Shown here: one piece after another, positions 10,773 through 31,825 of the stretch | Layout of the letters: each line of letters begins with the position of its first letter | How positions within the stretch are numbered: position 1 is the stretch's first letter | Virus record (IMG/VR): IMGVR_UViG_3300021961_000374 | Coordinates: 1-31,938 of that record | Length of the DNA: 31,938 nt | Reading direction: 5' to 3' (one strand) | From: a virus | The notes under the pieces: model-generated | Told to the model about the DNA's origin: nothing | Databases searched by the model: none | What the model saw: the letters and a program-made list of their open reading frames with translations, nothing else | Position numbers and translations under genes: made by a program

Positions 10773-11120
10773 ATGATTGATGATTATGTGAAGAAGAAGG
10801 ACCTTTATGTCCCTGAAAGAGCGTTCGGTGTTTGTATTTGGATCATGCCGAACGGCAAGCCGCTTTCTGACGGTGACGGCGTTCTTTGTGCAGAAGGCGT
10901 TATGAATGACAAAGAAGTTGAAAGACAGGTCGCTCAGGCTGCTAAGTATTGGACTGGTAGCGATGAGGGTTACACGACTTGGGTAGGTGGGGCTAGAAAG
11001 GTTACTGCTTCTGAGCAAGATGATCAAAAAGAAAGATTTGAGCAGGGTTTGAATCCAGATCCTTATGAAGACGTTATTGAGGCGGCTGTCAGAAAGGAAT
11101 TGAACAGGAGAGGTCGATGA
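10773..11120 (+). CDS. Conserved pre-portal phage protein
   Basis: 115 residues from MIDDYVKKKDLYVPERAFGV; an ATG four codons upstream is also possible. The middle is the segment MPNGKPLSDGDGVLCAEGVM followed by AAKYWTGSDEG, a pattern I recall from conserved proteins encoded next to the portal in aquatic and actinobacterial phages. Role unknown, possibly head-assembly related. The stop overlaps the portal start as ATGA. It is the first gene after the terminator at 10699-10732. Confidence 0.7.
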   Translation: MIDDYVKKKDLYVPERAFGVCIWIMPNGKPLSDGDGVLCAEGVMNDKEVERQVAQAAKYWTGSDEGYTTWVGGARKVTASEQDDQKERFEQGLNPDPYEDVIEAAVRKELNRRGR

Positions 11121-12736
11121 GGTCAAATATGAGTCATATTGAAGAAGAAGAGAATCAGGAAGTTTTTCTTGATGATATTAGTTACTCTCAAGTTGTAACT
11201 AAGAAAGTCACTGATGATCCTTTTAAGAAAGTTAAGTATTCTTCTCTTTCTTCTCGAATGAAGAGGAGGGCTACTCGTCTTGCTAAGAAGTATGAAGGTG
11301 TTGATGATGTAAGCACAAAGTATATTGATCCAGAAGAACTTGATGGCTATTCGCTTTATGACGTTGTTACTCCTCCCTATGATCTAGATACCCTCGCTGA
11401 ACTTTATGATTCTAGTGCAATTCATAATGCTGCTATTAATGCAAGAGTTATGAACACTGTTGGTCTTGGGTATTCGTTCCCAGAGACTTTAAAGTCTAGA
11501 AGAAGGCTTGAGAAAGCTCAAGGCAATGCTGACAGGCTGGCTAGAGTCAGGAAGGCTATTCAAGATGCTCGTCAGGATCTTGAAACAAAGTTTGAAGACT
11601 TTAATGAAGAAGAAACATTTATTGAGACCATGACCCGTGTGTGGCTTGATGTTCTTACTACCGGCAACGGCTATCTTGAGATCGGTAGAAACAACTCTGG
11701 TCAGATTGGATATATTGGTCATATTCCAGCAACTCTTATGAGAGTTCGCCGTCATCGTGACGGCTATGTACAGATCGCTAAAAGCAACAAGATTCAAGCG
11801 GTGTTCTTTAGAAACTTTCAAGACACCGAGATGGAAGATCCGATTAACTCAGATCCAAATCCAAACGAAGTAATTCACTTCAAGACGTACTCACCAAACA
11901 ATACTTATTATGGCATCCCGTCATCTGTTTCTGCGGCTGCTGCAATTGTAGGAGATAAGTTTGCCAAAGAGTACAACATTGATTACTTCGAAAACAAAGC
12001 TATCCCTCGCTACGCAATTATTGTCAAAGGTGCAAAACTAAGCCAGCGCTCAAAGCAAGAACTTGTTAACTATTTCCGTCAGGAAGTTAAAGGAAGAAAC
12101 CACGGTACTCTTATTGTGCCTCTTCCGGCTTCTCTTGGTGGAGATAGTGATATCAAGTTTGAGAAGCTTGAGGCCGGTATTCAGGATGCCTCGTTTGACA
12201 AGTACCGCAAGTCAAACAGGGACGAGATTCTTGTTGCTAACAGGGTTCCCGCCCCGAAGGTAGGTGTCTATGACAATGCTAACCTTGCGGTTTCTAGAGA
12301 TGCTGACAAGACGTTCAAGACTCAGGTTATTGGGCCGGATCAATCTGTTGTTGAGAAAAAGATTAACCGACTTATTTCTGAGTTCACGGATCTAGTAACT
12401 ATTAAGTTCAACAGGATTGATCTTATTGACGAGGACATTCAATCAAGAATTTACGATAGATATCTTCGCACTGAAGTTGTTAGTCCGAATGAAGTTCGTA
12501 ATGAACTTGGTCTACCTGAAAGAACAGATGGTGACGAAGTTCTACCATTCCCAACTAAGTTGAAGAAGGAGCAGGGCAGCAATGGTCCCGGTGCTCCAGA
12601 GGGGAATGATAATAATGCTTCCGCAGTGCCTAGAAGGGCCAGAGCGGACACGCCAGAAGGCTCCACTGATCCTAGAGACAGTGGTGATCAGGCTGAGCGT
12701 GGAGAGAACCAAGATAATGGAGGAAATAATGATTGA
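11117..12736 (+). CDS. Portal protein
   Basis: 539 residues. Forms the dodecameric ring through which DNA enters the capsid and to which the tail attaches. Portal-like features include the early LYDSSAIHNAAINARVMNTV, the TTGNGYLEIGRN strand segment near 190, VIHFKTYSPNNTYYGIPSS with SAAAAIVGDKFAKEYN (stem), and the late ILVANRVPAPKVGV segment with LRTEVVSPNEVRNELGLPE near the end, as in PBSX/HK97-type portals. The last 55 residues are a disordered Gly/Asn/Asp-rich tail. AGGAG lies upstream and the ATG overlaps the previous stop by four bases. The terminase gene expected next to a portal is not in the window. Confidence 0.9.
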   Translation: MRSNMSHIEEEENQEVFLDDISYSQVVTKKVTDDPFKKVKYSSLSSRMKRRATRLAKKYEGVDDVSTKYIDPEELDGYSLYDVVTPPYDLDTLAELYDSSAIHNAAINARVMNTVGLGYSFPETLKSRRRLEKAQGNADRLARVRKAIQDARQDLETKFEDFNEEETFIETMTRVWLDVLTTGNGYLEIGRNNSGQIGYIGHIPATLMRVRRHRDGYVQIAKSNKIQAVFFRNFQDTEMEDPINSDPNPNEVIHFKTYSPNNTYYGIPSSVSAAAAIVGDKFAKEYNIDYFENKAIPRYAIIVKGAKLSQRSKQELVNYFRQEVKGRNHGTLIVPLPASLGGDSDIKFEKLEAGIQDASFDKYRKSNRDEILVANRVPAPKVGVYDNANLAVSRDADKTFKTQVIGPDQSVVEKKINRLISEFTDLVTIKFNRIDLIDEDIQSRIYDRYLRTEVVSPNEVRNELGLPERTDGDEVLPFPTKLKKEQGSNGPGAPEGNDNNASAVPRRARADTPEGSTDPRDSGDQAERGENQDNGGNND

Positions 12737-16553: not shown

Positions 16554-17585
16554 ATGGCAACTCAAGAAGAAATTCTATCGAAGGCTAATGAAGTCACTAC
16601 CTCGGTTGTAGGTAATGCTTCTGGCGGTCTTCTTAACGCTGAGCAGGCTAATCGTTTCCTAGATTTTGTGGTCGATCAGTCCGTTCTAATGCAAAACAGC
16701 CGAGTTGTCCGTATGCGTGCGTCCAGCATGGATATTGACAAGCTTTCGGTTGGTACTCGCCTCATGCAAAAGGCTACTGAGGCAACCAATGACGGCTCTA
16801 ACGCCGCCGTAACCTTCTCGAAGGTTTCGCTCTCCAGCGTCAAGCTTCGTCTTGACTGGGAGATCTCAACTGAGTCCCTAGAGGACAACATCGAGGGTGC
16901 CTCGCTTGAGGATCACATCGCTCAGGTCATGGCTCGCCAGACCGCTAACGATCTTGATGATCTTCTCATCAACGGCAACACCTCGTCGTCCAACGGACTT
17001 CTCAAGGCTCTTGACGGTTTCGTCAAGCTTGCCCTCGCTTCAGGTACCACTGTTGACGAGGCTGGTGACAATGTTTCACGTTCGGTTTTTGATCGTGTTC
17101 TTCGTAACCTTCCCAACAAGTACCTACAGCGTCGTAACGAACTAAGGTTCTTCACCGGTCCAGGTGTTGTTCAGGATGCCATCTACTCGCTTGGCAACCC
17201 CAACTCCGCCACTGAGGCTTCTGCTGGTGCTCCAAGCCCCGGCTCAACCACTGGCGACCTTGCCTTCCTTCAGGGGGCAATGCGTGCCAACGGTGGCGCT
17301 GGTTCGACTGGTCTCGCTCCGTTCGGTATCCCACTCGTTGAGGTACCGCTCATGCCTGAGACTGTCACTGGCGACTACTCCGGTGCTGCTGGTTCGCACG
17401 GTTACGTGGAACTTACCTTCCCGAACAACCGTGTTGTTGGTCTACATCGTGACATCACGGTGTACCGTCAGTTCCAGCCGAAGACCGACACCATTGAGTA
17501 CACGCAGTACATGCGTCTCGCTTGCAATATCGAGAACGCTGACTCGTATGTCATCGCTAAGAACGTCAAGCTTCGTAGCGCGTGA
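16554..17585 (+). CDS. Major capsid protein, HK97 fold
   Basis: 343 residues. It follows the protease-scaffold gene by 18 bases, with the perfect ribosome site AGGAGG. HK97-type elements: an N-terminal helical arm, an E-loop-like segment around LSVGTRLMQKAT, the long spine helix around residues 115-140 (LEDHIAQVMARQTANDLDDL), the P-domain GPGVVQDAIYSLG, and an A-domain with GIPLVEVPLMP and NNRVVGLHRDITVYRQFQPK. Codons are much richer in C-ending forms than neighbours, as expected for the most highly expressed gene. A strong terminator follows at once. Confidence 0.9.
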   Translation: MATQEEILSKANEVTTSVVGNASGGLLNAEQANRFLDFVVDQSVLMQNSRVVRMRASSMDIDKLSVGTRLMQKATEATNDGSNAAVTFSKVSLSSVKLRLDWEISTESLEDNIEGASLEDHIAQVMARQTANDLDDLLINGNTSSSNGLLKALDGFVKLALASGTTVDEAGDNVSRSVFDRVLRNLPNKYLQRRNELRFFTGPGVVQDAIYSLGNPNSATEASAGAPSPGSTTGDLAFLQGAMRANGGAGSTGLAPFGIPLVEVPLMPETVTGDYSGAAGSHGYVELTFPNNRVVGLHRDITVYRQFQPKTDTIEYTQYMRLACNIENADSYVIAKNVKLRSA

Positions 17586-18508: not shown

Positions 18509-18856
18509 GTGGAGCGTAGGGAGTTTGTCGGTGCGGCTGAAGAAACAACTTTATCCGCTAGCATTTCGAACACTGATACAACCATTACGGTTGTTGATGG
18601 TTCTACATTTCCCAGCGGTTCGTCTGGAAGCCCATTTGTCATTGTAATTGACAGAGGGGAAGCAACTGAGGAAAAGATTTTGTGTACATCTAGAACTACG
18701 AACACTTTTACTGTTTCGTCAAGAGGGTATGATGGCCCTCCTGCGTTCGCACATAGTTCTGGAGCTAAAGTTAATCATGTTTTGGATGCTACTGCTATTC
18801 AGGATATGAATATAACGACTTATGATAATCAAGTATTATCATGGATGGGGGTTTAA
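18509..18856 (+). CDS. Structural protein with RGYDG motif, WMGV C terminus
   Basis: 115 residues, starting at GTG four bases after GGAGG; the in-frame ATG at 18440 lies inside the previous gene. The beta-rich fold carries TFTVSSRGYDGPPAFAHSSG, a motif seen repeatedly in phage head-tail or minor tail proteins (RGYDGT...HS.GA.V.HV). The C terminus is LSWMGV, as in 14710-14934 and 19186-19407. Probably a minor virion protein. Confidence 0.72.
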   Translation: MERREFVGAAEETTLSASISNTDTTITVVDGSTFPSGSSGSPFVIVIDRGEATEEKILCTSRTTNTFTVSSRGYDGPPAFAHSSGAKVNHVLDATAIQDMNITTYDNQVLSWMGV

Positions 18857-18859
18857 TAA

Positions 18860-19189
18860 ATGGCTTTAACACCAAAGAGGCTTTATACAGGGAACGACAC
18901 TGCAAGCAACGTTTATTCTGCCTCATCTCTTGCGAATAGTTACTCTATCATCAAGACGATGAGTGTTTGTAATACTACAACTGCTGATAAGACGGTAACT
19001 ATTCACATTGTTCCAAATAGTGGAACTGCCGGTGCAAATAATATGATCATGAGCAATGTTGTCGTTCCTGCAAATGATACAATTTATTCTAATATGGTTT
19101 ACGTTCTTAACGCTGGGGATGCGGTCTATTATGACCCTGAGGATGCTAATCTTACTCTAGTGTTGACTGGAGTTGAGTACACACCATGA
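18860..19189 (+). CDS. Small beta-sandwich virion protein (family with 19409 and 28925)
   Basis: 109 residues, with alternating strands: SIIKTMSVCNTTTADKTVTI, then VVVPANDTIYSNMVYVLNAG. The layout (SVCN-T... then PANDT-I) matches the products of 19409-19738 and, more loosely, 28925-29302, so the three are probably paralogues. The overlap ATGA with the next gene shows coupling. Likely fibre or baseplate decoration. Confidence 0.65.
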   Translation: MALTPKRLYTGNDTASNVYSASSLANSYSIIKTMSVCNTTTADKTVTIHIVPNSGTAGANNMIMSNVVVPANDTIYSNMVYVLNAGDAVYYDPEDANLTLVLTGVEYTP

Positions 19190-19739: not shown

Positions 19740-21014
19740 ATGGCAATTTTTAAGTTGTCTGAAGGTGGTTGGGATAAAGCAAGAAGGCCGTTTAGATCAG
19801 GTTATTCTGGTACTGCCCCCGCTTGGGTAGACAATACTCTTGCTAATCTTGATTATGATACGGTTTATTCTGATAGCGTTACTGCATCCGGAGAGCCTGC
19901 TGTCAACTATGAAATTAGTGCTGGCTCTCTACCTACCGGTATTAGTCTAAATCAAGACACTGGTGCCCTTTCTGGGACGCCTAGTGTGCTTGAATCTTAC
20001 TCATTTACAATAACTGCCTCTAACCCACTAGGATCAGTTTCACAAGCTTTTTCTGGACAGACAGGTGTTGCTCCGTCTTGGGTTGATGAAACCCTTGCAA
20101 ATATTACGTACAACACTGCCTACAGTGATGGTGTTGAAGCGTCTGGTGTACCAACTCCATCATACTCTATTTCCGCTGGCGCTCTACCAACAGGTCTATC
20201 ATTAAACACTTCTACTGGCGCTATCACTGGCACTCCAACTGCCGCTGGAGATTTTACATTCACGGTCACAGCGACAAACTCTGTTTCATCTATCTCTAAA
20301 GAATTTACATTTAGCACACCTGCACTAATAACTGGCGGAACCGAAACAACTTACACAGGATACATGGCCAGAACATTTACAACAACTGGTCAAAACACTT
20401 TAACCATTGAAGGCGGTAGCCCTGTAACAGCTGCTGTTATGGCTATTTCTGGTGGATACCCGGGTGTTGGTGGTTCTGGAGAACCTAATCCTGCAAGAGA
20501 AAGCGGTGGCGCTGCTGGCGCAAGAACTATATCAAATGTAACCTTTGCTCCGGGCACTTATTATGTTAATGTTGGTTCTACTAGTGCATCAAGTAATATT
20601 AAAGATCAACCAGGTTCTACTACTTTAATTAACGCTTCAGGCAGAACTCCTGGAACACTGTCTCCAGTTGCTTACGGCATGGGCGGTGGAAGAGGGCATA
20701 GTGGTGGAACTCGAAATAGTCAAAGTGGTGTAAGTGGCGCTGCCAACAACTATCGCACAGGATCAAACGAAACGAGAGGCGGTGGTGGAGGGGGCGCAGG
20801 CTGGGGCGGCTCTAATCCCGGACCATATCCGGGTGGAGGTGGTGGCTCTGGCGGTGGTGGTCCCGGTAGAGGGCCATCACAAAGCCCAAGCTTAGGATCT
20901 CCCGGCACACCCACAACGGGTTCTGGCGGAGGTGGAACTTGGTCTGGCACTCAAGGAGCGGGTGCCCCTGGAATGGTTGTCATTAGATTTGCTGATACGG
21001 ATGTGATAACATGA
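19740..21014 (+). CDS. Tail adhesin with two putative Ig domains and a glycine-rich tip
   Basis: 424 residues starting MAIFKLSEGG, nine bases after GGAGG. Residues 30-115 and 118-200 are two repeats of the He_PIG-type Ig domain (each with SLPTGISL...TGALSGTP or ALPTGLSL...TGAITGTP, then FTVTATN). The remainder (about 240-415) is highly Gly-rich with runs such as GGGGGGAGWGG, ending in GAPGMVVIRFADTD. The Gly-rich part resembles polyglycine-type phage adhesins that bind receptors. Three related proteins lie downstream, but this one lacks their ISVGLTYS...GTVTW C-terminal module. Confidence 0.78.
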   Translation: MAIFKLSEGGWDKARRPFRSGYSGTAPAWVDNTLANLDYDTVYSDSVTASGEPAVNYEISAGSLPTGISLNQDTGALSGTPSVLESYSFTITASNPLGSVSQAFSGQTGVAPSWVDETLANITYNTAYSDGVEASGVPTPSYSISAGALPTGLSLNTSTGAITGTPTAAGDFTFTVTATNSVSSISKEFTFSTPALITGGTETTYTGYMARTFTTTGQNTLTIEGGSPVTAAVMAISGGYPGVGGSGEPNPARESGGAAGARTISNVTFAPGTYYVNVGSTSASSNIKDQPGSTTLINASGRTPGTLSPVAYGMGGGRGHSGGTRNSQSGVSGAANNYRTGSNETRGGGGGGAGWGGSNPGPYPGGGGGSGGGGPGRGPSQSPSLGSPGTPTTGSGGGGTWSGTQGAGAPGMVVIRFADTDVIT

Positions 21015-21472
21015 GTCATATTTTATGTGTTACAAATTTTACTGACGAGACTATCTCTTTTGACGCTACTCATCTTGGACCATATGGTGCTGCTTTTCAA
21101 ATTGGAATTGAAGATAGACAAGTCTTTACTGATCTAAGATTTGAAGTAGAAATAGATGGTCACATAGAATATAAACCAAATGGTTCATATTCTTATGGAA
21201 AGTCCGACCAAGAATTTGTTGATTACGTTTATTTCGATTTGCTTCCAGACACTGCTTATTCTGCTTCTGTAATGGTTCGTGATGGGTCTGAAGTTGTAAC
21301 TGATGTTGTTAACTTCACAACCCCCATTCCAGACCAGCCATATCCTTCTTGGACTTGGGTAAAACCTGATTGGGTCCCACCTGTCCCATATCCGTCTGAT
21401 ATAATTGAAGGCGTCCTGATGTACGATTGGGATGAGGAAGGTCAGCAGTGGGTAGCGATTCTCGCGGAATAG
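21011..21472 (+). CDS. Hybrid fibre-associated protein (Fn3-like N terminus, cassette-type C terminus)
   Basis: 153 residues. The N-terminal 105 resemble a fibronectin-type beta domain (ILCVTNFTDETISFDATHLG, then DTAYSASVMVRDGSEVVTDV). The C-terminal 45 (PYPSWTWVKPDWVPPVPYPS, then YDWDEEGQQWV) resemble the Trp-rich C terminus of the MAHYAF-type protein at 30198-30602. This looks like domain shuffling. It overlaps the previous gene by ATGA and the next by 25 bases. Like the 30198 protein, it directly precedes an oxygenase pair. Confidence 0.65.
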   Translation: MSHILCVTNFTDETISFDATHLGPYGAAFQIGIEDRQVFTDLRFEVEIDGHIEYKPNGSYSYGKSDQEFVDYVYFDLLPDTAYSASVMVRDGSEVVTDVVNFTTPIPDQPYPSWTWVKPDWVPPVPYPSDIIEGVLMYDWDEEGQQWVAILAE

Positions 21473-22044
21473 TAGTAATTAAAGAACTCTTCTCTAAAGA
21501 CGTTCACAAAGAAATCATCAGCTTCGTTCAGAACGAAGTTAATACTTATCCTTTAGATGAAGATAATAGTTTGTTTTTTAGAAGGTGTAAGCAAAACATA
21601 GACTTTTTTGTTCATATCCACGAACAACTTGTAGATCTTGCTAGTGAATGTTTTCAAGTTAAACTCAAGCCTTCTTACTCATTTCTAAGCATGTATGAAG
21701 ACAAAGGGCGTTGCCCTCTGCACTTGGATCGACCACCATGCTATAGAACTATTGACTACTTAATCAACTCTGATAGTAAAGATGGCTGGCCGATTAATAT
21801 ATCTCACCCGTGGAGTGATGATAAAGTAAAGTCTTTTCTTGGTAAAAAGAGTGGACTGTCAAAAGAAGAATTTGATTTAAGAATAGAGAACGAAACATGG
21901 GAGTCAATAATTTTAGAAGAAAACGATGCTGCTGGGTATTCTGGTACAAATTCTTGGCACTATAGACCAACGTTGTCTAATGGTAAATCAAACCTTGTAT
22001 TTTTTCATTTTGTGAAAGAAGATTATGATGGTGAACTACTCTGA
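21448..22044 (+). CDS. 2-oxoglutarate/Fe(II) oxygenase-like protein, copy A1
   Basis: 198 residues. Iron-binding HxD is H92-L-D94 within RCPLHLDRPPCYRTIDYLIN. The presumed distal His is H171 (NSWHYRP), close to the end FFHFVKEDYDGEL. It would hydroxylate an unknown substrate with O2 and 2-oxoglutarate. It starts with GTG eight bases after AGGAAGG, inside the end of the previous gene, and overlaps the second oxygenase gene by 20 bases. The gene at 30631-31215 is a clear paralogue. The helper substrate ligands are not all identified. Confidence 0.75.
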   Translation: MGSDSRGIVVIKELFSKDVHKEIISFVQNEVNTYPLDEDNSLFFRRCKQNIDFFVHIHEQLVDLASECFQVKLKPSYSFLSMYEDKGRCPLHLDRPPCYRTIDYLINSDSKDGWPINISHPWSDDKVKSFLGKKSGLSKEEFDLRIENETWESIILEENDAAGYSGTNSWHYRPTLSNGKSNLVFFHFVKEDYDGELL

Positions 22045-22669
22045 GCCAGTAAATCTAGATGTAAACACATTAAAACTTACACCTATTGATTCTGTTGGTG
22101 GTGGTCATAATTTATATCATGATGATTGTCACAATTTTGCTTGGTGTGAAAATATTTTTACAAATACTCAACTTGATGCAATTATTAGCATTTGTAATAG
22201 CTTAGAGTTTGATAAAGGAATGACTGCTTCTACAACACAAAATGATAAAGTTCGAAATTCTAGTGTTAAATTTATATACCCAAACAACAGGACTCGATGG
22301 ATTTTTGATGCTCTAACTGAATCTATTCATCACATGAATAAAGAGTATTTTGGTTTTGATTTAGGCTACATGGCCGAGGGTATCCAACTTACTAGATATG
22401 AAGCCCCCACTCAGCATTATGAATGGCATTGTGACCGCGGTATGGCCGTACCGGTGAGGAAGTTGTCTGTAGCCCTTCAGTTATCAGACCCAAGTGATTA
22501 CTCTGGTGGTGATTTAGAATTAATGATTGGTGAGACTCCTCAGAAGGCTAAGAGGGAGCGTGGTGTTGCAACTTTTTTTCCTTCTTGGCTGATGCATAGA
22601 GTCACGCCAGTAACAGAAGGTACTAGATATTCTTTAGTCTGCTGGATTTCCGGCCCTCCGTTTAGATAA
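22025..22669 (+). CDS. 2-oxoglutarate/Fe(II) oxygenase, PKHD-hydroxylase type, copy B1
   Basis: 214 residues. All core residues are present: H135 and D137 (WHCDRG), distal H191 (LMHRVTPV) and R201 (GTRYSLV), which binds 2-oxoglutarate. The core VRKLSVALQLSDPSDYSGGD is characteristic of prolyl-4-hydroxylase-like PKHD enzymes. Likely substrate is a protein side chain; a tail protein of this phage is an attractive guess but unproven. It begins within the last 20 bases of the A1 gene, without a clear ribosome site, so its translation is probably coupled. Confidence 0.88.
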   Translation: MMVNYSEPVNLDVNTLKLTPIDSVGGGHNLYHDDCHNFAWCENIFTNTQLDAIISICNSLEFDKGMTASTTQNDKVRNSSVKFIYPNNRTRWIFDALTESIHHMNKEYFGFDLGYMAEGIQLTRYEAPTQHYEWHCDRGMAVPVRKLSVALQLSDPSDYSGGDLELMIGETPQKAKRERGVATFFPSWLMHRVTPVTEGTRYSLVCWISGPPFR

Positions 22670-22675
22670 GTTAAA

Positions 22676-23176
22676 ATGATAAATCCTTTAACGGTAAATT
22701 ACAATAATTTAAAAAATCTTATATTATCCGGCGATTTCCCTTGGTTTGTTGGTAAAAATGATTTTGATAATTTTCACTTTTTGTCACATCCATTTTTGAC
22801 ACGACCTGAATCTGGACCAAGATACCCAACAGTCACATCCGCTTATGTAGACCTTGCCTATCAGGTATTTATAGAAATATGTGAGCAAAATAATATTAAT
22901 GTTGAGTGTGTGTATAGGATGGGAGCGAATATGGTTTTCCCTTCTGTGAATTCCGATCTTGTCAGCAATCCCCATGTTGATCATCAGTTCCCTCATTCAA
23001 ATATGATAATTTATTTAACGTCATCTGGTGGAAGTACAATTGTTGGGGAACATAAATACGCACCAGTAGAAGATAGTGTTTTTGTTTTTGAAGGCGAAAG
23101 TCATTATCATGAGTTACCAAAAGTAAGTCCAAGAATTGTATTTGTTGCAACATTCTTAAAAGGAGAATATGCGTGA
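22676..23176 (+). CDS. Third 2-oxoglutarate/Fe(II) oxygenase-like protein
   Basis: 166 residues. The HxD is H100-V-D102 in SNPHVDHQFPHSNMIIYLTS. The distal His is H145 in ESHYHELPK and the 2-oxoglutarate Arg is R153 in SPRIVFVATF. This is a compact jelly-roll oxygenase of a different subfamily from its neighbours. It follows the PKHD gene by six bases and overlaps the halogenase GTG start, so it may act on the same pathway as the halogenase. Substrate unknown. Confidence 0.76.
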   Translation: MINPLTVNYNNLKNLILSGDFPWFVGKNDFDNFHFLSHPFLTRPESGPRYPTVTSAYVDLAYQVFIEICEQNNINVECVYRMGANMVFPSVNSDLVSNPHVDHQFPHSNMIIYLTSSGGSTIVGEHKYAPVEDSVFVFEGESHYHELPKVSPRIVFVATFLKGEYA

Positions 23177-24312
23177 AAGTCACTGTTGTTGGAGCTGGCA
23201 ATGCCGGTTCCTTTACGGCACTAAATTGGTCTTGGTATACAAGGAATGACCCCAATGTTCAGATTGAATTAGTTTACGACCCATCTCTACCCCCAGAAAG
23301 GGTCGGTCAAGCAACGCTTTTAGATGCCCCTCATCTCCTTTGGGGTTCTACTGGCTTTGATTGGTATAACAACAATATACATGCCACATTCAAAAGTGGA
23401 ATCTTGTATGAAGGTTGGGGAAAAAGCAAAGATAAGTTTTTTCACAACTTTCCTGCCGACAGGATGGCTATGCATTATTGCCCTTGGGAGATGCAGCAAA
23501 GTATTTTAAATTCAGGTCATTTTAAAGTTATAGAATCTAATTCTCTACAATTAGAAAATATTGATTCTGATTATATTTTTGATTGTAGAGGTAAACCTGA
23601 TAACTTTGATGACTACTATGATCTGCTTAATCCAATTAATTCTGTAATACTAGGAAGACCCAATTGGGATATGTCAGATGTTTTTTGGAGTAGGCATGTT
23701 GCTACGCCAGATGGTTGGACTTTTGTCATACCAACACATCCCGATTCTCCTTCTCACGATTACTGTGTTGGTTATTGCTATAACGACTCAATTACTACAA
23801 AACAGGAAGCAGAGCAAAACTTTTTATCTTTGTTTGATGTAACTGTAACAAAGCATTCAAGTTTTAAAAACTATATTGCAAAGTCACCTGTTATAGATGA
23901 AAGAATTTTTTTAAACGGAAATAGGCTATTTTTCCTTGAACCGCTTGAATCGTCATCAACACAAACATATTTGCACTGGGCAAAGACTTTATTTGGAAGC
24001 ATCCTCTTAGACGAGTGCAGCATTCAGCAGGCGGAGGAAGATATTGTAAGATATATTCGACAGACTCAAAACTTTATCCTCTGGCATTATCACTTTGGTT
24101 CAAAATACGATACACCTTTTTGGGAATACGCTAAAACACTAAGATTTATAGATCAAGAATTTGATGATATTCTTGAATATTCAAGATCTTGTAGCAAATA
24201 TGACATTGTACCCGAGACGCATGGAGGCAGTACAATAAATCACCTATATTCTCAGTGGCCACCGTACAGCTTCAAGGTTTGGGATGATGGAATGGCGATA
24301 CAATCTTGCTAA
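23173..24312 (+). CDS. Flavin-dependent (tryptophan-type) halogenase
   Basis: 379 residues. Uses FADH2, oxygen and halide to halogenate an aromatic or other activated carbon. N-terminal VVGAGNAGSFTAL gives the FAD motif GxGxxG at 7-12. ATFKSGILYEGW holds the catalytic Lys at K74. GWTFVIP at 181-187 is a form of the family's WxWxIP block. FLEPLESSSTQTY at 254-266 corresponds to the FIEPLES motif near the active-site strap. It is shorter than bacterial tryptophan halogenases (usually over 500 residues), resembling the compact viral type known from cyanophages. GTG start with AAAGGAG upstream and a four-base overlap with the oxygenase gene. Confidence 0.88.
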   Translation: MKVTVVGAGNAGSFTALNWSWYTRNDPNVQIELVYDPSLPPERVGQATLLDAPHLLWGSTGFDWYNNNIHATFKSGILYEGWGKSKDKFFHNFPADRMAMHYCPWEMQQSILNSGHFKVIESNSLQLENIDSDYIFDCRGKPDNFDDYYDLLNPINSVILGRPNWDMSDVFWSRHVATPDGWTFVIPTHPDSPSHDYCVGYCYNDSITTKQEAEQNFLSLFDVTVTKHSSFKNYIAKSPVIDERIFLNGNRLFFLEPLESSSTQTYLHWAKTLFGSILLDECSIQQAEEDIVRYIRQTQNFILWHYHFGSKYDTPFWEYAKTLRFIDQEFDDILEYSRSCSKYDIVPETHGGSTINHLYSQWPPYSFKVWDDGMAIQSC

Positions 24313-24345: not shown

Positions 24346-24936
24346 ATGGCTATTGATTTCCCTAATTCCCCATCAGTAGACCAGCAGTATACCGTTGGTG
24401 ATCGTACTTGGACTTGGAATGGTGATTATTGGGCATTGACCCTGACCAGTTCTACGTTTACTGCTTCTGACGACCCGCCTTCTGGTGCTTCTGCTGGTGA
24501 TATTTGGTTTGAATCAGATACTGGTAAGAGTTTTGTTTATTATGATTCTTTCTGGGTTGAGATTGCTGGTCGTGCAGGTTCGACTACCATTACTGGCGGC
24601 GGAAGCAATGTTTCTGTTTCTGGTACTGATGGAGAAATTCAGTTTGCTTCTAATAGCACTCTTTCAAGTTCAACTTCTCTTGTTTGGGATACTGCTAATA
24701 CCCAGCTAACTATTGGTGGCGATATTCTCGCTAACAATGTTACTGCTAATGCTAATGTAGTTGCTGATGGTATTACGATTCATTCTTCTGGGGTTCCTAT
24801 TTATCTGAACGGTCAGACGGTTTCTATAGATTTTACTATCCCTTCAGGGTATAATGGTATGTCGGCGGGTCCAATTACTATTTCTAATGGTGTAACAGTA
24901 ACTGTGACTTCTGGTAGTGAGTGGAGTATTGTATGA
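24346..24936 (+). CDS. Tail fibre structural protein with shuffled modules
   Basis: 196 residues. It opens with the module MAIDFPNSPSVDQQYTVGDR then WTWNGDYW, followed by the SDDPPSG...GDIWFESD...VYYDSFWVEI module, both shared with 28472-28918. The second module also occurs in 19186-19407. The rest is Ser/Thr/Asn-rich beta repeat, ending with a SAGPITISNGVTVTVTSGSE segment typical of the ends of phage fibre proteins. It overlaps the next gene by ATGA. Confidence 0.74.
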   Translation: MAIDFPNSPSVDQQYTVGDRTWTWNGDYWALTLTSSTFTASDDPPSGASAGDIWFESDTGKSFVYYDSFWVEIAGRAGSTTITGGGSNVSVSGTDGEIQFASNSTLSSSTSLVWDTANTQLTIGGDILANNVTANANVVADGITIHSSGVPIYLNGQTVSIDFTIPSGYNGMSAGPITISNGVTVTVTSGSEWSIV

Positions 24937-25448: not shown

Positions 25449-25672
25449 TGAGCACATTCGACTTCAACCCTGACTTCCCTGACGCAACCGACGACCAAAA
25501 GATGGAACAGGTCCGGCTGTGGCGTGACGGCGAACTGGGCCGTACTGATTGGACTCAGGTTGCTGACGCTCCCGTAGACGCAACGGCGTGGGCCGCATAC
25601 CGTCAGGCTTTACGTGATCTTCCTGCAACGATTGATATTGCTAACCCTGTATTGCCGGAGGCCCCCCAATGA
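25445..25672 (+). CDS. Tail fibre assembly chaperone-like protein
   Basis: 75 residues starting MMSTFDFNPD. The end, RDGELGRTDWTQVADAPVDA then WAAYRQALRDLPATI, matches the conserved DWTQ...W..YRQALRDLP end of phage tail fibre assembly chaperones (APC type). It is translationally coupled to the preceding receptor-tip gene, which it probably helps fold, and shares its higher GC content. An upstream in-frame ATG at 25397 lies inside the previous gene. Confidence 0.78.
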   Translation: MMSTFDFNPDFPDATDDQKMEQVRLWRDGELGRTDWTQVADAPVDATAWAAYRQALRDLPATIDIANPVLPEAPQ

Positions 25673-26145
25673 GTACCTTAAGGTTTAATACTTGGGAGAA
25701 CACCGGGGGCACTGAAGGAGCAACCCTTGATAATTCCGGCTATCTTTCAGCAACTTTAAAGTCCCCTTACGAGTATTGGACTATTTCTGCTACCGCTGCT
25801 ACAGGCACGGTGGATGTTGACATCTCTACTTCGTCTGTCTGGTATTATACTTCTGATGCATCTGCTAACTGGACGTTTAATTTTAGAGGTGATGGCTCTA
25901 CGACATTGAACAGTCTTCTTGCTATTGGTGAATCTGTAACTACAGCTTTCTTTGTGACGAATGGCACAACCGCATATTATCCGACCGCTTTTACGGTGGA
26001 TAGTGCTTCGGTGACTCCTAAGTGGTCGGGTGGTTCTGCTCCTTCGGCGGGTAATGCTAGTAGTATTGATGCTTATTTGTTTACTATTGCTAAGACTGCT
26101 GATGCGACGTTTACTGTTTTGGGTCAGCAGGTTCAGTTTGCGTGA
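25669..26145 (+). CDS. Fibre-associated beta protein, copy 1
   Basis: 158 residues. Its core (KSPYEYWTISATAATGTVDV, then WTFNFRGD, then TTAYYPTAFTVDSASVTPKW, then SAPSAGNASSIDAYLFTIAK) is a family known from marine phages, and 27025-27522 is a paralogue. It couples (ATGA) to the chaperone and lies just before a Gly-rich adhesin, an arrangement repeated at 27025/27531. Likely a stalk for the adhesin. Confidence 0.72.
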   Translation: MSTLRFNTWENTGGTEGATLDNSGYLSATLKSPYEYWTISATAATGTVDVDISTSSVWYYTSDASANWTFNFRGDGSTTLNSLLAIGESVTTAFFVTNGTTAYYPTAFTVDSASVTPKWSGGSAPSAGNASSIDAYLFTIAKTADATFTVLGQQVQFA

Positions 26146-27024: not shown

Positions 27025-27522
27025 ATGGCTTCTGTAATTAGATTTGATAACTGGCAAACTACAAGTGGTAATTCTGTTATCACGACAAGTGATGCTGGTG
27101 ATATGGCTATAACAAATAAGTTGACTGCAACTTTTAAATCACCGCATGAGTATTGGTCTATTGCTGCGACTGCTGCTACTGGGACGGTTAATGTTGATGT
27201 TTCTACCGCTACTGCTTGGTATTACACAACTGATGCATCTGCTAACTGGGCTTTTAATTTCAGGGGAGATGCAAGCACAACCTTAAACAGTGTTCTTGGT
27301 GTTGACGAGTCTTTGACTGTTGTTTTTCTTGTCACAAATGGCGCTACGGCATACTATGCTAACGCTTTTACTATTGATGGAACTTCTGTGACTCCCGAGT
27401 GGGCAGACGGAACGGCTCCTTCTTCTGGCAACATCAATGCTATTGATTCGTACTTATTTACGATCATTAAAACTGCTGACGCAACTTTTACTGTTCTAGC
27501 ACAAAGGAATAATTTCTCCTGA
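27025..27522 (+). CDS. Fibre-associated beta protein, copy 2
   Basis: 165 residues, paralogue of 25669-26145: FKSPHEYWSIAATAATGTVN, WAFNFRGD, ATAYYANAFTIDGTSVTPEW and IDSYLFTIIKTADATFTVLA line up block for block. It has a longer N terminus (MASVIRFDNWQTTSGNSVIT). It again immediately precedes a Gly-rich adhesin, showing a duplicated two-gene unit. Confidence 0.72.
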   Translation: MASVIRFDNWQTTSGNSVITTSDAGDMAITNKLTATFKSPHEYWSIAATAATGTVNVDVSTATAWYYTTDASANWAFNFRGDASTTLNSVLGVDESLTVVFLVTNGATAYYANAFTIDGTSVTPEWADGTAPSSGNINAIDSYLFTIIKTADATFTVLAQRNNFS

Positions 27523-28471: not shown

Positions 28472-28918
28472 ATGGCTATTGACTTTCCTGATTCCCCATC
28501 TGTTGATGATCAACATACGGTAGGTGATCGTATTTGGCGTTGGACCGGTGTTTACTGGGAGCTTTCAAGTACGTCTAGCCTTTTTACTGCATCTGATACC
28601 GCACCTTCTAGCCCGACTGCCGGTGATATTTGGTTTGAGTCAAGTACCGGTAAAACATACATTCGTTATGATTCTTACTGGATTGAGATTGGTGCGGCTT
28701 CTAGTTATACTGATCTTATTTTTGATGCTGATGGTGATACTTCTGTTCAGGTAGAGTATTCTTCTGATGAAGATGTGATAAGATTTATTACGGCGGGAAC
28801 AGAAAGAGCAAATATTTCTGCTTCCGGCATGAATGTGGCTAACAGTCTAAGTGTTGATGGGGCTGGGGTTGCTACTACAGGTAAGGCCATTGCAATGGCT
28901 ATGGTTTTTGGAGGTTGA
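28472..28918 (+). CDS. Tail fibre module protein
   Basis: 148 residues. The first 75 (MAIDFPDSPSVDDQHTVGDR, then SDTAPSSPTAGDIWFESSTG, then RYDSYWIEI) are the paralogue of 24346-24936. The remainder is a short beta segment, DADGDTSVQVEYSSDEDVIR, common in phage fibre repeats. Shorter than its relative, and lacking its fibre repeat. Confidence 0.72.
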   Translation: MAIDFPDSPSVDDQHTVGDRIWRWTGVYWELSSTSSLFTASDTAPSSPTAGDIWFESSTGKTYIRYDSYWIEIGAASSYTDLIFDADGDTSVQVEYSSDEDVIRFITAGTERANISASGMNVANSLSVDGAGVATTGKAIAMAMVFGG

Positions 28919-28924
28919 TGAATA

Positions 28925-29302
28925 ATGGCTGCGCCTAATATTGTAAATGTAAGTACGATTACTGCTAAGACCGCTCAGATTAAACTTAGCGGCACTTCTG
29001 CCACTGAAGTTGTGAGTAATCCGGCTTCTTCCGGCAAAGTTTTTAAATTAAACAATATTATTGTTTCAAATATTGATGGTTCCGCTGCTGCAACCGTAAC
29101 TGTTGCTATTGAGAATAATGCAACAGTTGGTTCTGGCACTTCTACGTATCTTGCTTATACTATCAATGTTCCAGCAGACGCCACTTTGATTCTTATTGAT
29201 AAGTCTACTGCTGTTTATCTTGAAGAGAATCATAATATTAATGCGGCTGCTTCTGCTGGCAATGATCTTGATATTGTTTGCTCGTATGAAGAGATTTCGT
29301 AA
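28925..29302 (+). CDS. Small beta-sandwich virion protein, third family member
   Basis: 125 residues, beta-sandwich, related to 18860 and 19409 (VFKLNNIIVSNIDGSAAATVTV, then PADATLILIDKSTAVYLEEN). In other marine phages this type is often near adhesins. The stop shares a base with the next start. Function unknown. Confidence 0.66.
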   Translation: MAAPNIVNVSTITAKTAQIKLSGTSATEVVSNPASSGKVFKLNNIIVSNIDGSAAATVTVAIENNATVGSGTSTYLAYTINVPADATLILIDKSTAVYLEENHNINAAASAGNDLDIVCSYEEIS

Positions 29303-30198
29303 TGGCAGATAGAAGATTTTTAGGTATTAATAAGTTACCAACTGGTGCTGATGCTACTGGTGTCTGGACTGTTAAAGAAGCTTATTATGCTTCTTTGGAT
29401 TCCCAGTGGCCTGGGCCTGTGCCAGATCCTGTTTATTATTTAGTTGTTGCTGGTGGCGCTGGAGGCAGCTCGGCTTATGGCGGTGGTGGTGGTGCTGGTG
29501 GGTATAGGTCTGCTTGGAATGGTGAAACTTCTGGTGGTGGTGCTGGCGCTGAAACAGGCTTTACTCCTATATCTCAAGTCTCTTATACTGTCACAGTAGG
29601 TGGTGGCGGTGGTTTGAACTCTAATGGTTCGCCTAGCACTTTTGCTACAGTTACTTCTACTGGTGGCGGTAGAGGCGGAAACAACAGCCCTACATCAAAT
29701 AACGGTGCTAGTGGTGGCTCTGGCGGTGGTGGTTCTGCTGGTTCTGGACCAATTGGTGGTTCGTCTGGTGGTTCTGGAACTTCTGGTCAGGGTTATGCTG
29801 GTGGGCCTGCTGCTCCTAATGGCGGGCCTGGTCGTTGTCCTTCTGGCGGTGGCGGGGGTGCTGCTAGTGCAGGAGAGACAGGAACTTGTTACAGTCCAAA
29901 TACGAGTCAAGGTGGTAATGAGAGGGCTTCTACAATAGCTGGAGCAAGCCAGTCCCGTGCCCGTGGCGGTGATGGACAAGGTGTTCCTACTGGTGATGCA
30001 CGGTCTCCGCTTGGTGCAAATTCTGGTAGTGGGGGCAGGTCTTCAACGGCAATAGATTCTGGTGACTCCGGTGTTGTTATTTTAAGATTTGCGGGGCCAG
30101 ACCCTACAATTAGCGTTGGTCTAACGTATGTTAGGACAACTAGTGGGGCAGATACAATTTACACTTTTACAAATGGGTCTGGAACGGTGACTTGGTAA
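29302..30198 (+). CDS. Glycine-rich tail adhesin, copy 4
   Basis: 298 residues. A 45-residue N terminus (MADRRFLGINKLPTGADATG) precedes VYYLVVAGGAGGSSAYGGGG, YTVTVGGGGG, long Gly runs and the C-terminal GVVILRFAGPDPTISVGLTY to GSGTVTW module. The N terminus differs from copies 2 and 3 and may set where it docks. It is coupled to both neighbours by TAATG overlaps. Confidence 0.78.
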   Translation: MADRRFLGINKLPTGADATGVWTVKEAYYASLDSQWPGPVPDPVYYLVVAGGAGGSSAYGGGGGAGGYRSAWNGETSGGGAGAETGFTPISQVSYTVTVGGGGGLNSNGSPSTFATVTSTGGGRGGNNSPTSNNGASGGSGGGGSAGSGPIGGSSGGSGTSGQGYAGGPAAPNGGPGRCPSGGGGGAASAGETGTCYSPNTSQGGNERASTIAGASQSRARGGDGQGVPTGDARSPLGANSGSGGRSSTAIDSGDSGVVILRFAGPDPTISVGLTYVRTTSGADTIYTFTNGSGTVTW

Positions 30199-30602
30199 TG
30201 GCACATTATGCATTTATTGATGAAAACAATATAGTTTTTGAAGTTATCACTGGTCGTGATGAAGATGAAGTCGTTGATGGTATTTCTGATTGGGAAACTT
30301 ATTATGGCGAGTTGAGAGGTGCATTATGCAAGAGAACTTCTTACAACACTAGGGCTGGTGTCCATAAATATGGGGGCACTCCGTTTAGACTTAATTATGG
30401 TTCGATAGGTTGCGTGTATGATCCTGATCGTGATGTTTTCATTGAGAATCCGCCGGAGGGGTATCGGTCTTGGGTTTTGAATGAAGAGTTAGGTATTTAC
30501 GAGGCACCTTTTCCCGCACCAGATGATTCGGGTGATTGGATTTGGGATGAAGACAGTCTTCAATGGTATCACAAGTCCGAGTGGCTGAATTTTGACGAGT
30601 AA
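30198..30602 (+). CDS. MAHYAF-type adhesin-cassette protein
   Basis: 134 residues starting MAHYAFIDENNIVFEVITGR. The family, seen in cyanophage and other marine phages, has CKRTSYNTRAGVHKYGGTPF, a Tyr/Asp-rich centre and a Trp-rich end (SWVLNEELGIYEAPFPAPDD, then WIWDEDSLQWYHKSEW). The ATG, rather than a TTG two codons upstream, overlaps the previous stop. Its N terminus recurs at 31870, and the hybrid at 21011 shares its end. It precedes the oxygenase pair at 30631. Role unknown; perhaps a fibre part and substrate for those enzymes. Confidence 0.72.
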   Translation: MAHYAFIDENNIVFEVITGRDEDEVVDGISDWETYYGELRGALCKRTSYNTRAGVHKYGGTPFRLNYGSIGCVYDPDRDVFIENPPEGYRSWVLNEELGIYEAPFPAPDDSGDWIWDEDSLQWYHKSEWLNFDE

Positions 30603-30614
30603 GTTCATTTTTTT

Positions 30615-30624
30615 GTGATACAAT
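30615..30624 (+). promoter_or_regulatory. Extended -10 promoter GTGATACAAT, leaderless
   Basis: TGA precedes TACAAT (30619-30624). Six bases (GACGGC) separate it from the ATG at 30631. The layout and the ACGGC just before ATG match the thyX start on the other strand. Confidence 0.6.
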
Positions 30625-30630
30625 GACGGC

Positions 30631-31215
30631 ATGTCAGATATTACAATCGTAAAGAATTTATTGGACGACGAAGACTTTTCGCTGCTGCAATCTTTTGTTT
30701 TAGATTCTTTGCGTCATATTGGAGAATATGACGCTCAGTTCAATAGAAGTTCTGTTCATGAGTCGCCAGCTCTTTTTGATTTGCATAAAAGGCTTACTCC
30801 TTTTGCTTCTGACCTTTTTGGTATAAATCTAAAACCTTCATATAACTATGTATCAAGCTATTATGATGGTGGCCGGTGCCCTCTCCACTTTGACAGGGAC
30901 CAATGTTTTAGAACTATAGATCTTTTAATCTATCAGGAAAGCAATGAGCCTTGGTCTCTTATGATATCTGATGCTTGGAAAAAAGAAGACTGGGATAAGT
31001 TTAGAAGTAATATTGATATTGATTCTGTTGACAATAAGTTACTAGATCTTTCTGATGTCGATGCTAATTGGAACGAGGTCTTGCTTTATCCTAACGATGC
31101 CGCTTGCTATTCTGGTACTGATTCATGGCATTATAGACCAGAGCCTTCTGTTGGAAGGGCAGATTTGATTTTCTTTCATTTTGTAGAGGAGGATTTTGAT
31201 GGTCAACTTAGCTGA
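30631..31215 (+). CDS. 2-oxoglutarate/Fe(II) oxygenase-like protein, copy A2
   Basis: 194 residues, paralogue of 21448-22044. HxD is H86-F-D88 (RCPLHFDRDQCFRTIDLLIY), presumed distal His is H167 (DSWHYRPEPS), and the end is FFHFVEEDFDGQL. It has a leaderless promoter rather than a coupled start. It overlaps the next gene by 20 bases, exactly as copy A1 overlaps B1. Confidence 0.76.
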   Translation: MSDITIVKNLLDDEDFSLLQSFVLDSLRHIGEYDAQFNRSSVHESPALFDLHKRLTPFASDLFGINLKPSYNYVSSYYDGGRCPLHFDRDQCFRTIDLLIYQESNEPWSLMISDAWKKEDWDKFRSNIDIDSVDNKLLDLSDVDANWNEVLLYPNDAACYSGTDSWHYRPEPSVGRADLIFFHFVEEDFDGQLS

Positions 31216-31825
31216 TAGTCCACGTTTAAAAGTTAATTTAGATCAAGAATTTGAGCGTGGAGGCGGTGGTTGGGATTTTGTTCGAGACCGTTTAGATAAT
31301 TGGTCTTGGATGGAGGCATTTAGTCCAGAAGAATGTGAAAGCATTGTTCGCATCGGTAAAAGCTATAATCTTAGAGCTGGTGAGACTTATGGAAAACATG
31401 ATAAGCGTAGAAATTCAAATGTTTGTTTTCTTAAACCTACTGATAGGACGGACTGGATATTTTATAGACTGACGGAGGTTGCATTGGAGTTGAATCAAAA
31501 CTACTTTCAGTTTGATATAACAGGATTTTCTGAAGGCTTTCAGTTTACAGAGTACATTGCTCCTGCTGGTAATTATGGATGGCACGCGGATGGATCACCA
31601 GGGAATACTGTTAGAAAACTTACTATGGTTGTGCAGCTATCTAATCCAAATGACTATGAAGGTGGCGATCTGCAATTGAATCCGGCTGGCGATGAGCATA
31701 CTATTCAAAAAAAGCAAGGGTTGGTGACAATGTTCCCAAGTCATACGCTTCACCAAGTCACACCTGTAACTTCTGGGGTTCGACACTCTTTAGTTATATG
31801 GGTTGCCGGACCCAGATTTAAGTAA
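31196..31825 (+). CDS. 2-oxoglutarate/Fe(II) oxygenase, PKHD-hydroxylase type, copy B2
   Basis: 209 residues, paralogue of 22025-22669. Core residues: H130-A-D132 (WHADGS), H186 (LHQVTPV) and R196 (GVRHSLV), with the central VRKLTMVVQLSNPNDYEGGD. All residues needed for iron and 2-oxoglutarate binding are retained, so it is probably active. N-terminal 35 residues differ from the other copy. Confidence 0.88.
   Translation: MMVNLADSPRLKVNLDQEFERGGGGWDFVRDRLDNWSWMEAFSPEECESIVRIGKSYNLRAGETYGKHDKRRNSNVCFLKPTDRTDWIFYRLTEVALELNQNYFQFDITGFSEGFQFTEYIAPAGNYGWHADGSPGNTVRKLTMVVQLSNPNDYEGGDLQLNPAGDEHTIQKKQGLVTMFPSHTLHQVTPVTSGVRHSLVIWVAGPRFK

Follow-up and report, generated by a model that had tools for sequence, protein, structure and literature searches.

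The question raised by this locus is why a virus would carry a run of oxygenase genes and a halogenase-like gene directly behind the gene for a glycine-rich, adhesin-like protein. The locus lies in the IMG/VR virus record IMGVR_UViG_3300021961_000374, whose 31,938 bases constitute the window analysed here. Four positive-strand genes of a cluster termed module A (21448 to 24312) encode three 2-oxoglutarate (2OG)-Fe(II) oxygenases, namely ox1 (21448 to 22044, 198 amino acids (aa)), the PKHD-like ox2 (22025 to 22669, 214 aa) and ox3 (22676 to 23176, 166 aa), followed by a compact, flavin-dependent halogenase-family protein (23173 to 24312, 379 aa). The genes are tightly packed, with a 20 nt overlap between ox1 and ox2, a 6 nt gap between ox2 and ox3 and a 4 nt overlap between ox3 and the halogenase gene. 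On the same strand, the 5′ neighbour of ox1, sharing 25 nt with it, encodes PSW-A (21011 to 21472), a small Trp/Pro-rich partner protein with a weak match to phrog_7759 that may be a tail-fibre chaperone or accessory. Upstream of this is GLY-A (19740 to 21014, positive strand), an adhesin-like protein with two He_PIG immunoglobulin-like domains followed by a Gly-rich domain, and the candidate substrate. Open reading frames (ORFs), profiles and motifs agree with the preliminary description of this stretch, which recognised three oxygenases and a halogenase within an adhesin locus and suggested that they may modify adjacent virion proteins after translation, or else a host-surface compound. We regard such a post-translational adhesin-modification cassette as the best explanation of the locus, with modest confidence; the genes, their conserved residues and the selection acting on them are observed, and from these we infer the adhesin as the substrate.

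Comparison with a close relative (L006) gave ratios of nonsynonymous to synonymous substitution (dN/dS) of 0.02–0.09 for the four enzyme genes of module A (0.06 for ox1, 0.02 for ox2 and 0.06 for the halogenase), indicating that the gene run is not a product of chance and that purifying selection acts on each of the four enzymes. In the same comparison dS is uneven along the module, at 0.04 for PSW, 0.10 for ox1 and 0.61 for the halogenase, which suggests mosaic exchange.

Among the oxygenases, ox2 matches PF13640 (2.4e-15) and PiuC in the PDB (3e-7), and its H135/D137/H191 triad is accompanied by R201; H135 and H191 are invariant in an alignment of relatives and R201 is nearly so. Its 71 bits fall below the 143-bit NCBIfam equivalog cut-off for PKHD-type hydroxylases (PiuC/YbiX), its sequence thus placing ox2 as a relative of PiuC/YbiX outside that equivalog. 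Neither ox1 nor ox3 has a match in Pfam. In ox1, H92, D94 and H171 are invariant across 20 relatives, with R173 accompanying the triad; the profile alignment of ox1 with ox2 is weak (hhalign, 44%), and the ox1 assignment therefore rests on fold and residues. The AlphaFold2 model of its paralogue ox1-B, described below, has a predicted local distance difference test (pLDDT) score of 93 and is predicted to adopt the double-stranded β-helix (DSBH) 2OG-Fe(II) fold, with the 2OG-Fe(II) enzymes HygX, HalD and proline hydroxylase H11 as top PDB folds. The ox3 protein matches phrog_274 (8e-25), has invariant H100 and D102 together with R153, and aligns with the ox2 profile (hhalign 91%, E 1e-6), a profile similarity from which its DSBH fold is predicted, that of ox2 following from its PF13640 match. 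The HxD...H motifs previously noted in the three oxygenases are accordingly present, although the distal His of ox3 is not aligned as invariant. The invariant HxD residues, the ox3–ox2 profile match and the ox1-B fold led us to reject the labels "ferrochelatase" for ox1 (phrog_2954) and "DNA endonuclease V" for ox3. Across PHROG families 2954, 3531, 274 and 2297, the names "ferrochelatase" and "DNA endonuclease (V)" in phage records seem to be misannotations of 2OG oxygenases that have spread from entry to entry.

The association of these enzymes with adhesins was surveyed in loci on viral contigs anchored on the halogenase, ox1, ox2, ox3, VirX1-like halogenases, PSW and, as a control, thyX, which is not a tail-region gene. 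Near-duplicate loci and those of the window's own lineage are left out of the counts. An ORF was taken as Gly-rich by its composition, part of the surveyed loci served to train the hidden Markov models (HMMs), of which that for ox2 is broad, and the PSW scan used the closer PSW set, the larger PSW alignment being too diverse. Within 3 kb of ox2 (n = 60), a Gly-rich gene was found in 44 loci, a PSW gene in 30, another oxygenase in 43 and a halogenase in 5, whereas none of the 42 thyX-anchored controls had a Gly-rich gene, nor a PSW, oxygenase or halogenase gene, at that distance (Fisher p about 1e-15 for the Gly-rich association). The association was weaker around ox1, where many loci are freshwater-like distant relatives (Gly-rich gene within 3 kb in 9/35, another oxygenase in 30/35), and the ox3-anchored viral scan returned matches from the window's own lineage only. 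Of the 45 ox2 loci with a Gly-rich or PSW gene within 3 kb, 5 have the nearest such gene on the other strand, and the oxygenase–adhesin link is therefore more than operon read-through.

The order Gly-rich protein, PSW, ox1, ox2 is present a second time in the window, at 29302 to 31825 on the positive strand, a module overlooked in the preliminary description. It consists of GLY-B (29302 to 30198; Gly-rich and adhesin-like, phrog_2295 at 2e-23, PF21722 at 1.5e-4 and below cut-off), PSW-B (30198 to 30602, in an ORF opening at a TTG at 30192; phrog_7759 at 1.4e-31), ox1-B (30631 to 31215) and ox2-B (31196 to 31825), the last two being paralogues of ox1 and ox2 at 40% identity each. Past the window's end, an overlapping contig (L005) carries a third PSW gene (18698 to 19090 of that locus) after ox2-B, with no intervening Gly-rich gene. 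Other tail-region genes are also duplicated, including a phrog_5906 pair (25669 to 26145 and 27025 to 27522) with 61% identity and a pair at 24346 to 24936 and 28472 to 28918 with approximately 62–68% identity across the N-terminal ~75–80 aa.

The adhesin-like proteins of both modules may be gp38-type polyglycine adhesins, each being Gly-rich in composition with a weak PF21722 (Gly_rich_2) match below cut-off. GLY-A in addition matches PF05345 (8.8e-20) and is 6.9% Pro with nine PG dipeptides, its Gly-rich part alone being 7.8% Pro. The nearest known adhesins of this type are gp38 of phages S16 and T2 and gp24 of Pam3, which are Gly-rich receptor-binding tips; the available parts of these reports, which describe Pam3 gp24 as working with a small chaperone, gp25, do not mention hydroxylating or halogenating enzymes (PMC9608196; PMC12892980). 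The AlphaFold2 model of PSW-B (pLDDT 95) had no PDB match at E ≤ 0.001, and its similarity to the gp25-type chaperone fold (7ypx_a) was non-significant (template modelling (TM) score 0.30, probability 0.10). A Gly-rich gene lies immediately 5′ of PSW in 65 of the 78 PSW-anchored loci with sequence there; the Gly-rich/PSW pair is thus widespread, with oxygenases as an optional addition to it.

The position of the enzymes might instead reflect a tail-tip insertion hotspot behind fibre genes, with the enzymes acting elsewhere, in 2OG/nitrogen signalling, DNA repair or on free tryptophan. Roles in setting 2OG levels or in DNA repair were suggested by Sullivan et al. 2010 (PMC3037559), the G+C content of the cassette (34–38%) is below that of most adjoining genes, and halogenases also occur beside photosynthesis, replication or head genes. 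Against a hotspot stands a PHROG/Pfam scan of 114 genes 3′ of PSW, from mostly oxygenase-free loci, in which the top 25 families listed were mainly structural and lysis families, and the recognisable enzymes included glycosyltransferases, sulfotransferases, APS kinase and oxygenases, alongside ferritin, phosphoesterase and terminase genes. In addition, ox1 and ox2 are neighbours with an overlap or gap of at most 20 nt in 69/95 unique pairs, as expected for a functional unit, and we consider the hotspot account distinctly unlikely. The sulfotransferase, APS kinase and glycosyltransferase genes near Gly-rich/PSW pairs (loci L342 to L434) are possibly other adhesin decorations.

The halogenase of module A scores 89.9 bits against PF04820 (cut-off 21), in two segments with ~150 profile positions unmatched between them, and matches phrog_2928 at 1.6e-63. 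The GxGxxG, Lys and FLEPLES motifs of the preliminary description are all present, as G7-x-G9-xx-G12, K74 and an EPLES containing E256; GxGxxG and the Lys are kept in 84/84 compact relatives and E256 in 78/84. Catalytic residues are thus conserved among relatives of both the oxygenases and the halogenase, where their loss had been named as a sign against the proposal. The WxWxIP motif is replaced by GWTFVIP, the second Trp being Phe in all 84 compact relatives, and the protein is therefore given a halogenase-family label with activity not assumed. A weak match was found to PDB 5uao (MibH), a halogenase that acts on a peptide and so offers a precedent. Compact relatives occur, for example, beside a head gene or beside a transaldolase gene, the latter followed by virion structural and tail fibre genes; one contig (L072, 8916 to 11095) carries two compact halogenase genes in tandem.

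The named isolates among the relatives within which the window halogenase nests are cyanophages. A cyanophage identity for the window itself was rejected, as its portal protein (11117 to 12736) and major capsid protein (16554 to 17585) are closest to those of large, ~130 kb Streptomyces siphophages such as NootNoot (Stanwilliamsviridae). Given these differing affinities, horizontal acquisition is the simplest explanation, and the halogenase was probably gained in this way.

The nearest characterized counterpart is VirX1 of cyanophage Syn10 (PDB 6QGM), a PF04820 phage halogenase that shares GxGxxG, the Lys and EPLES with the window enzyme and is likewise adjoined by Gly-rich tail proteins and 2OG oxygenases. 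VirX1 is longer, at 530 aa against 379 aa, the window enzyme missing one stretch within the chain and another at its C terminus, and the Phe at the second Trp of WxWxIP and its placement in a separate clade further distinguish the latter. In a halogenase tree, the split between the full-length clade containing VirX1 and the compact clade has support of 100/100, in a tree that also has long branches and unresolved forks. The full-length clade is adhesin-linked in 18/27 rows, mostly together with oxygenases, and the starred branches force at least five changes of adhesin label, which may mix gains and losses. Because these distant VirX1-like halogenases are so often adhesin-linked, the halogenase–cassette combination arose more than once; halogenases joined adhesin cassettes at least twice. 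In Syn9, whose gp42 matches VirX1 end to end, and in Syn10, the gene lies just behind Gly-rich tail proteins and ahead of clustered oxygenase genes that include the ox1 and ox3 types. A comparable order is seen in P-TIM40, S-WAM1, P-RSM6, S-RIM44, S-SZBM1 and S-CREM1, and the halogenase of S-SRM01 has a tail fibre on one side and a "gp37-gp38 adhesin tip complex" on the other. Sf-CH11 shows a comparable layout in a different arrangement. S-B64, S-MbCM6 and S-SSM5 are among the exceptions with no adhesin near the halogenase.

The same enzymes could instead act on a small molecule, or on a glycan or lipid of the host surface, yielding for example a halogenated metabolite or a capsule decoration, their tail-region position being incidental. 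Iyer et al. 2021 proposed a metabolite or capsule role for the S-SSM6a cluster of a halogenase, 2OG oxygenases and carbamoyltransferases (PMC7824862), and S-CAM8 and S-TIM4 each have a carbamoyltransferase next to the oxygenases. In vitro, VirX1 accepts a range of small aromatic substrates, according to a review that lists no natural pathway or substrate for it, the table entry being "-" (PMC8407142). Against this, the scan of genes between and behind both modules gave structural genes and genes of unknown function and recognised neither a carbamoyltransferase nor a biosynthetic gene, and in unrelated phages the oxygenases recur together with Gly-rich proteins, making small-molecule or glycan tailoring unlikely.

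Residue composition, compared for all twenty residues, provides hints only. Gly-rich proteins beside oxygenases are richer in Pro than those that are not (medians 4.6% and 2.8%, n = 40 and 50, p 4e-7), an excess that holds under GC-stratified permutation (p 1.5e-4); within the window, GLY-A and GLY-B (6.9% and 6.0% Pro) compare with 2.5% and 2.7% in the two Gly-rich proteins outside the oxygenase modules. Gly-rich proteins next to halogenases contain more Trp, Tyr and His. Another virion protein could also be the target, either PSW, a Trp/Tyr/Pro-rich neighbour whose gene overlaps ox1 in module A, or a nearby tail protein. PSW composition does shift beside oxygenases, with lower Gly and higher Lys and Asn; however, its proline is lower rather than higher there, and Syn9-type cassettes have Gly-rich proteins with no PSW detected by HMM, so that modification of such a protein rather than the Gly-rich adhesin is highly improbable.

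Several observations weigh against adhesin modification as the function of the full cassette. The compact halogenase clade is adhesin-linked in 1/37 rows, that row being the window, with 36/37 away from Gly-rich adhesins (Fisher p 2e-8 against 18/27 in the full-length clade, indicative since rows are related), and none of the 40 halogenase-anchored loci has a compact relative near a Gly-rich or PSW gene. This clade is without the second Trp of WxWxIP, halogenation by the compact enzyme being a prediction from sequence, and the genes scanned included no recognisable flavin reductase. An oxygenase is within 3 kb in only 15/80 PSW-anchored loci and a halogenase in none, making adhesin modification at best optional. 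The Pro signal disappears at coarse clustering (p 0.22 and 0.77 at 60% and 50% PSW identity, with few control clusters), Pro is not raised beside halogenases, and the aromatic enrichment there comes largely from related cyanomyovirus proteins. Modification of the adhesin is a prediction from the genes, as are the residues modified, halogenation by the compact enzyme and the benefit to the phage. The preliminary proposal is supported in part: oxygenases mostly lie near Gly-rich proteins and are duplicated with an adhesin inside the window, and distant VirX1-like halogenases are often adhesin-linked, whereas nearly all compact halogenase lineages occur in the unrelated contexts that it had named as counting against it.

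If adhesin modification is the function, a Gly-rich protein, by analogy a gp38-type polyglycine tail-tip adhesin, would be made together with its PSW partner, and two or three 2OG-Fe(II) oxygenases from the same overlapping gene run would hydroxylate its side chains, prolines being the best candidates. In module A, the flavin halogenase may also halogenate exposed aromatic residues using reduced flavin adenine dinucleotide (FADH2) from the host, giving adhesin tips of altered chemistry with changed receptor binding or stability. A precedent is mimivirus L230, a viral 2OG oxygenase that hydroxylates a viral Gly-rich protein, collagen (PMC9546862), differing in that its collagen undergoes lysine hydroxylation together with glucosylation, and in that it belongs to a eukaryotic virus and has no halogenase. 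No description of tail-fibre hydroxylation was found in the literature searched, a collection with few subscription journals and no bioRxiv preprints. More tentatively, dedicated cassettes that hydroxylate and halogenate phage receptor-binding adhesins, built more than once by recombination, might represent the native role of VirX1-type halogenases.

The T4-like cyanophages S-CAM8, S-TIM4 and Syn9 and Pelagibacter phages likewise carry oxygenase genes of the ox1, ox2 and ox3 types close to genes for tail fibres or Gly-rich proteins; the published interpretations found for them are signalling through 2OG, DNA repair and the synthesis of metabolites, and do not include adhesin modification. Whereas cyanophage 2OG oxygenases have so far been assigned to those processes, the present locus suggests that they act on tail-tip adhesins; if so, phages would vary host recognition by chemistry as well as by sequence.

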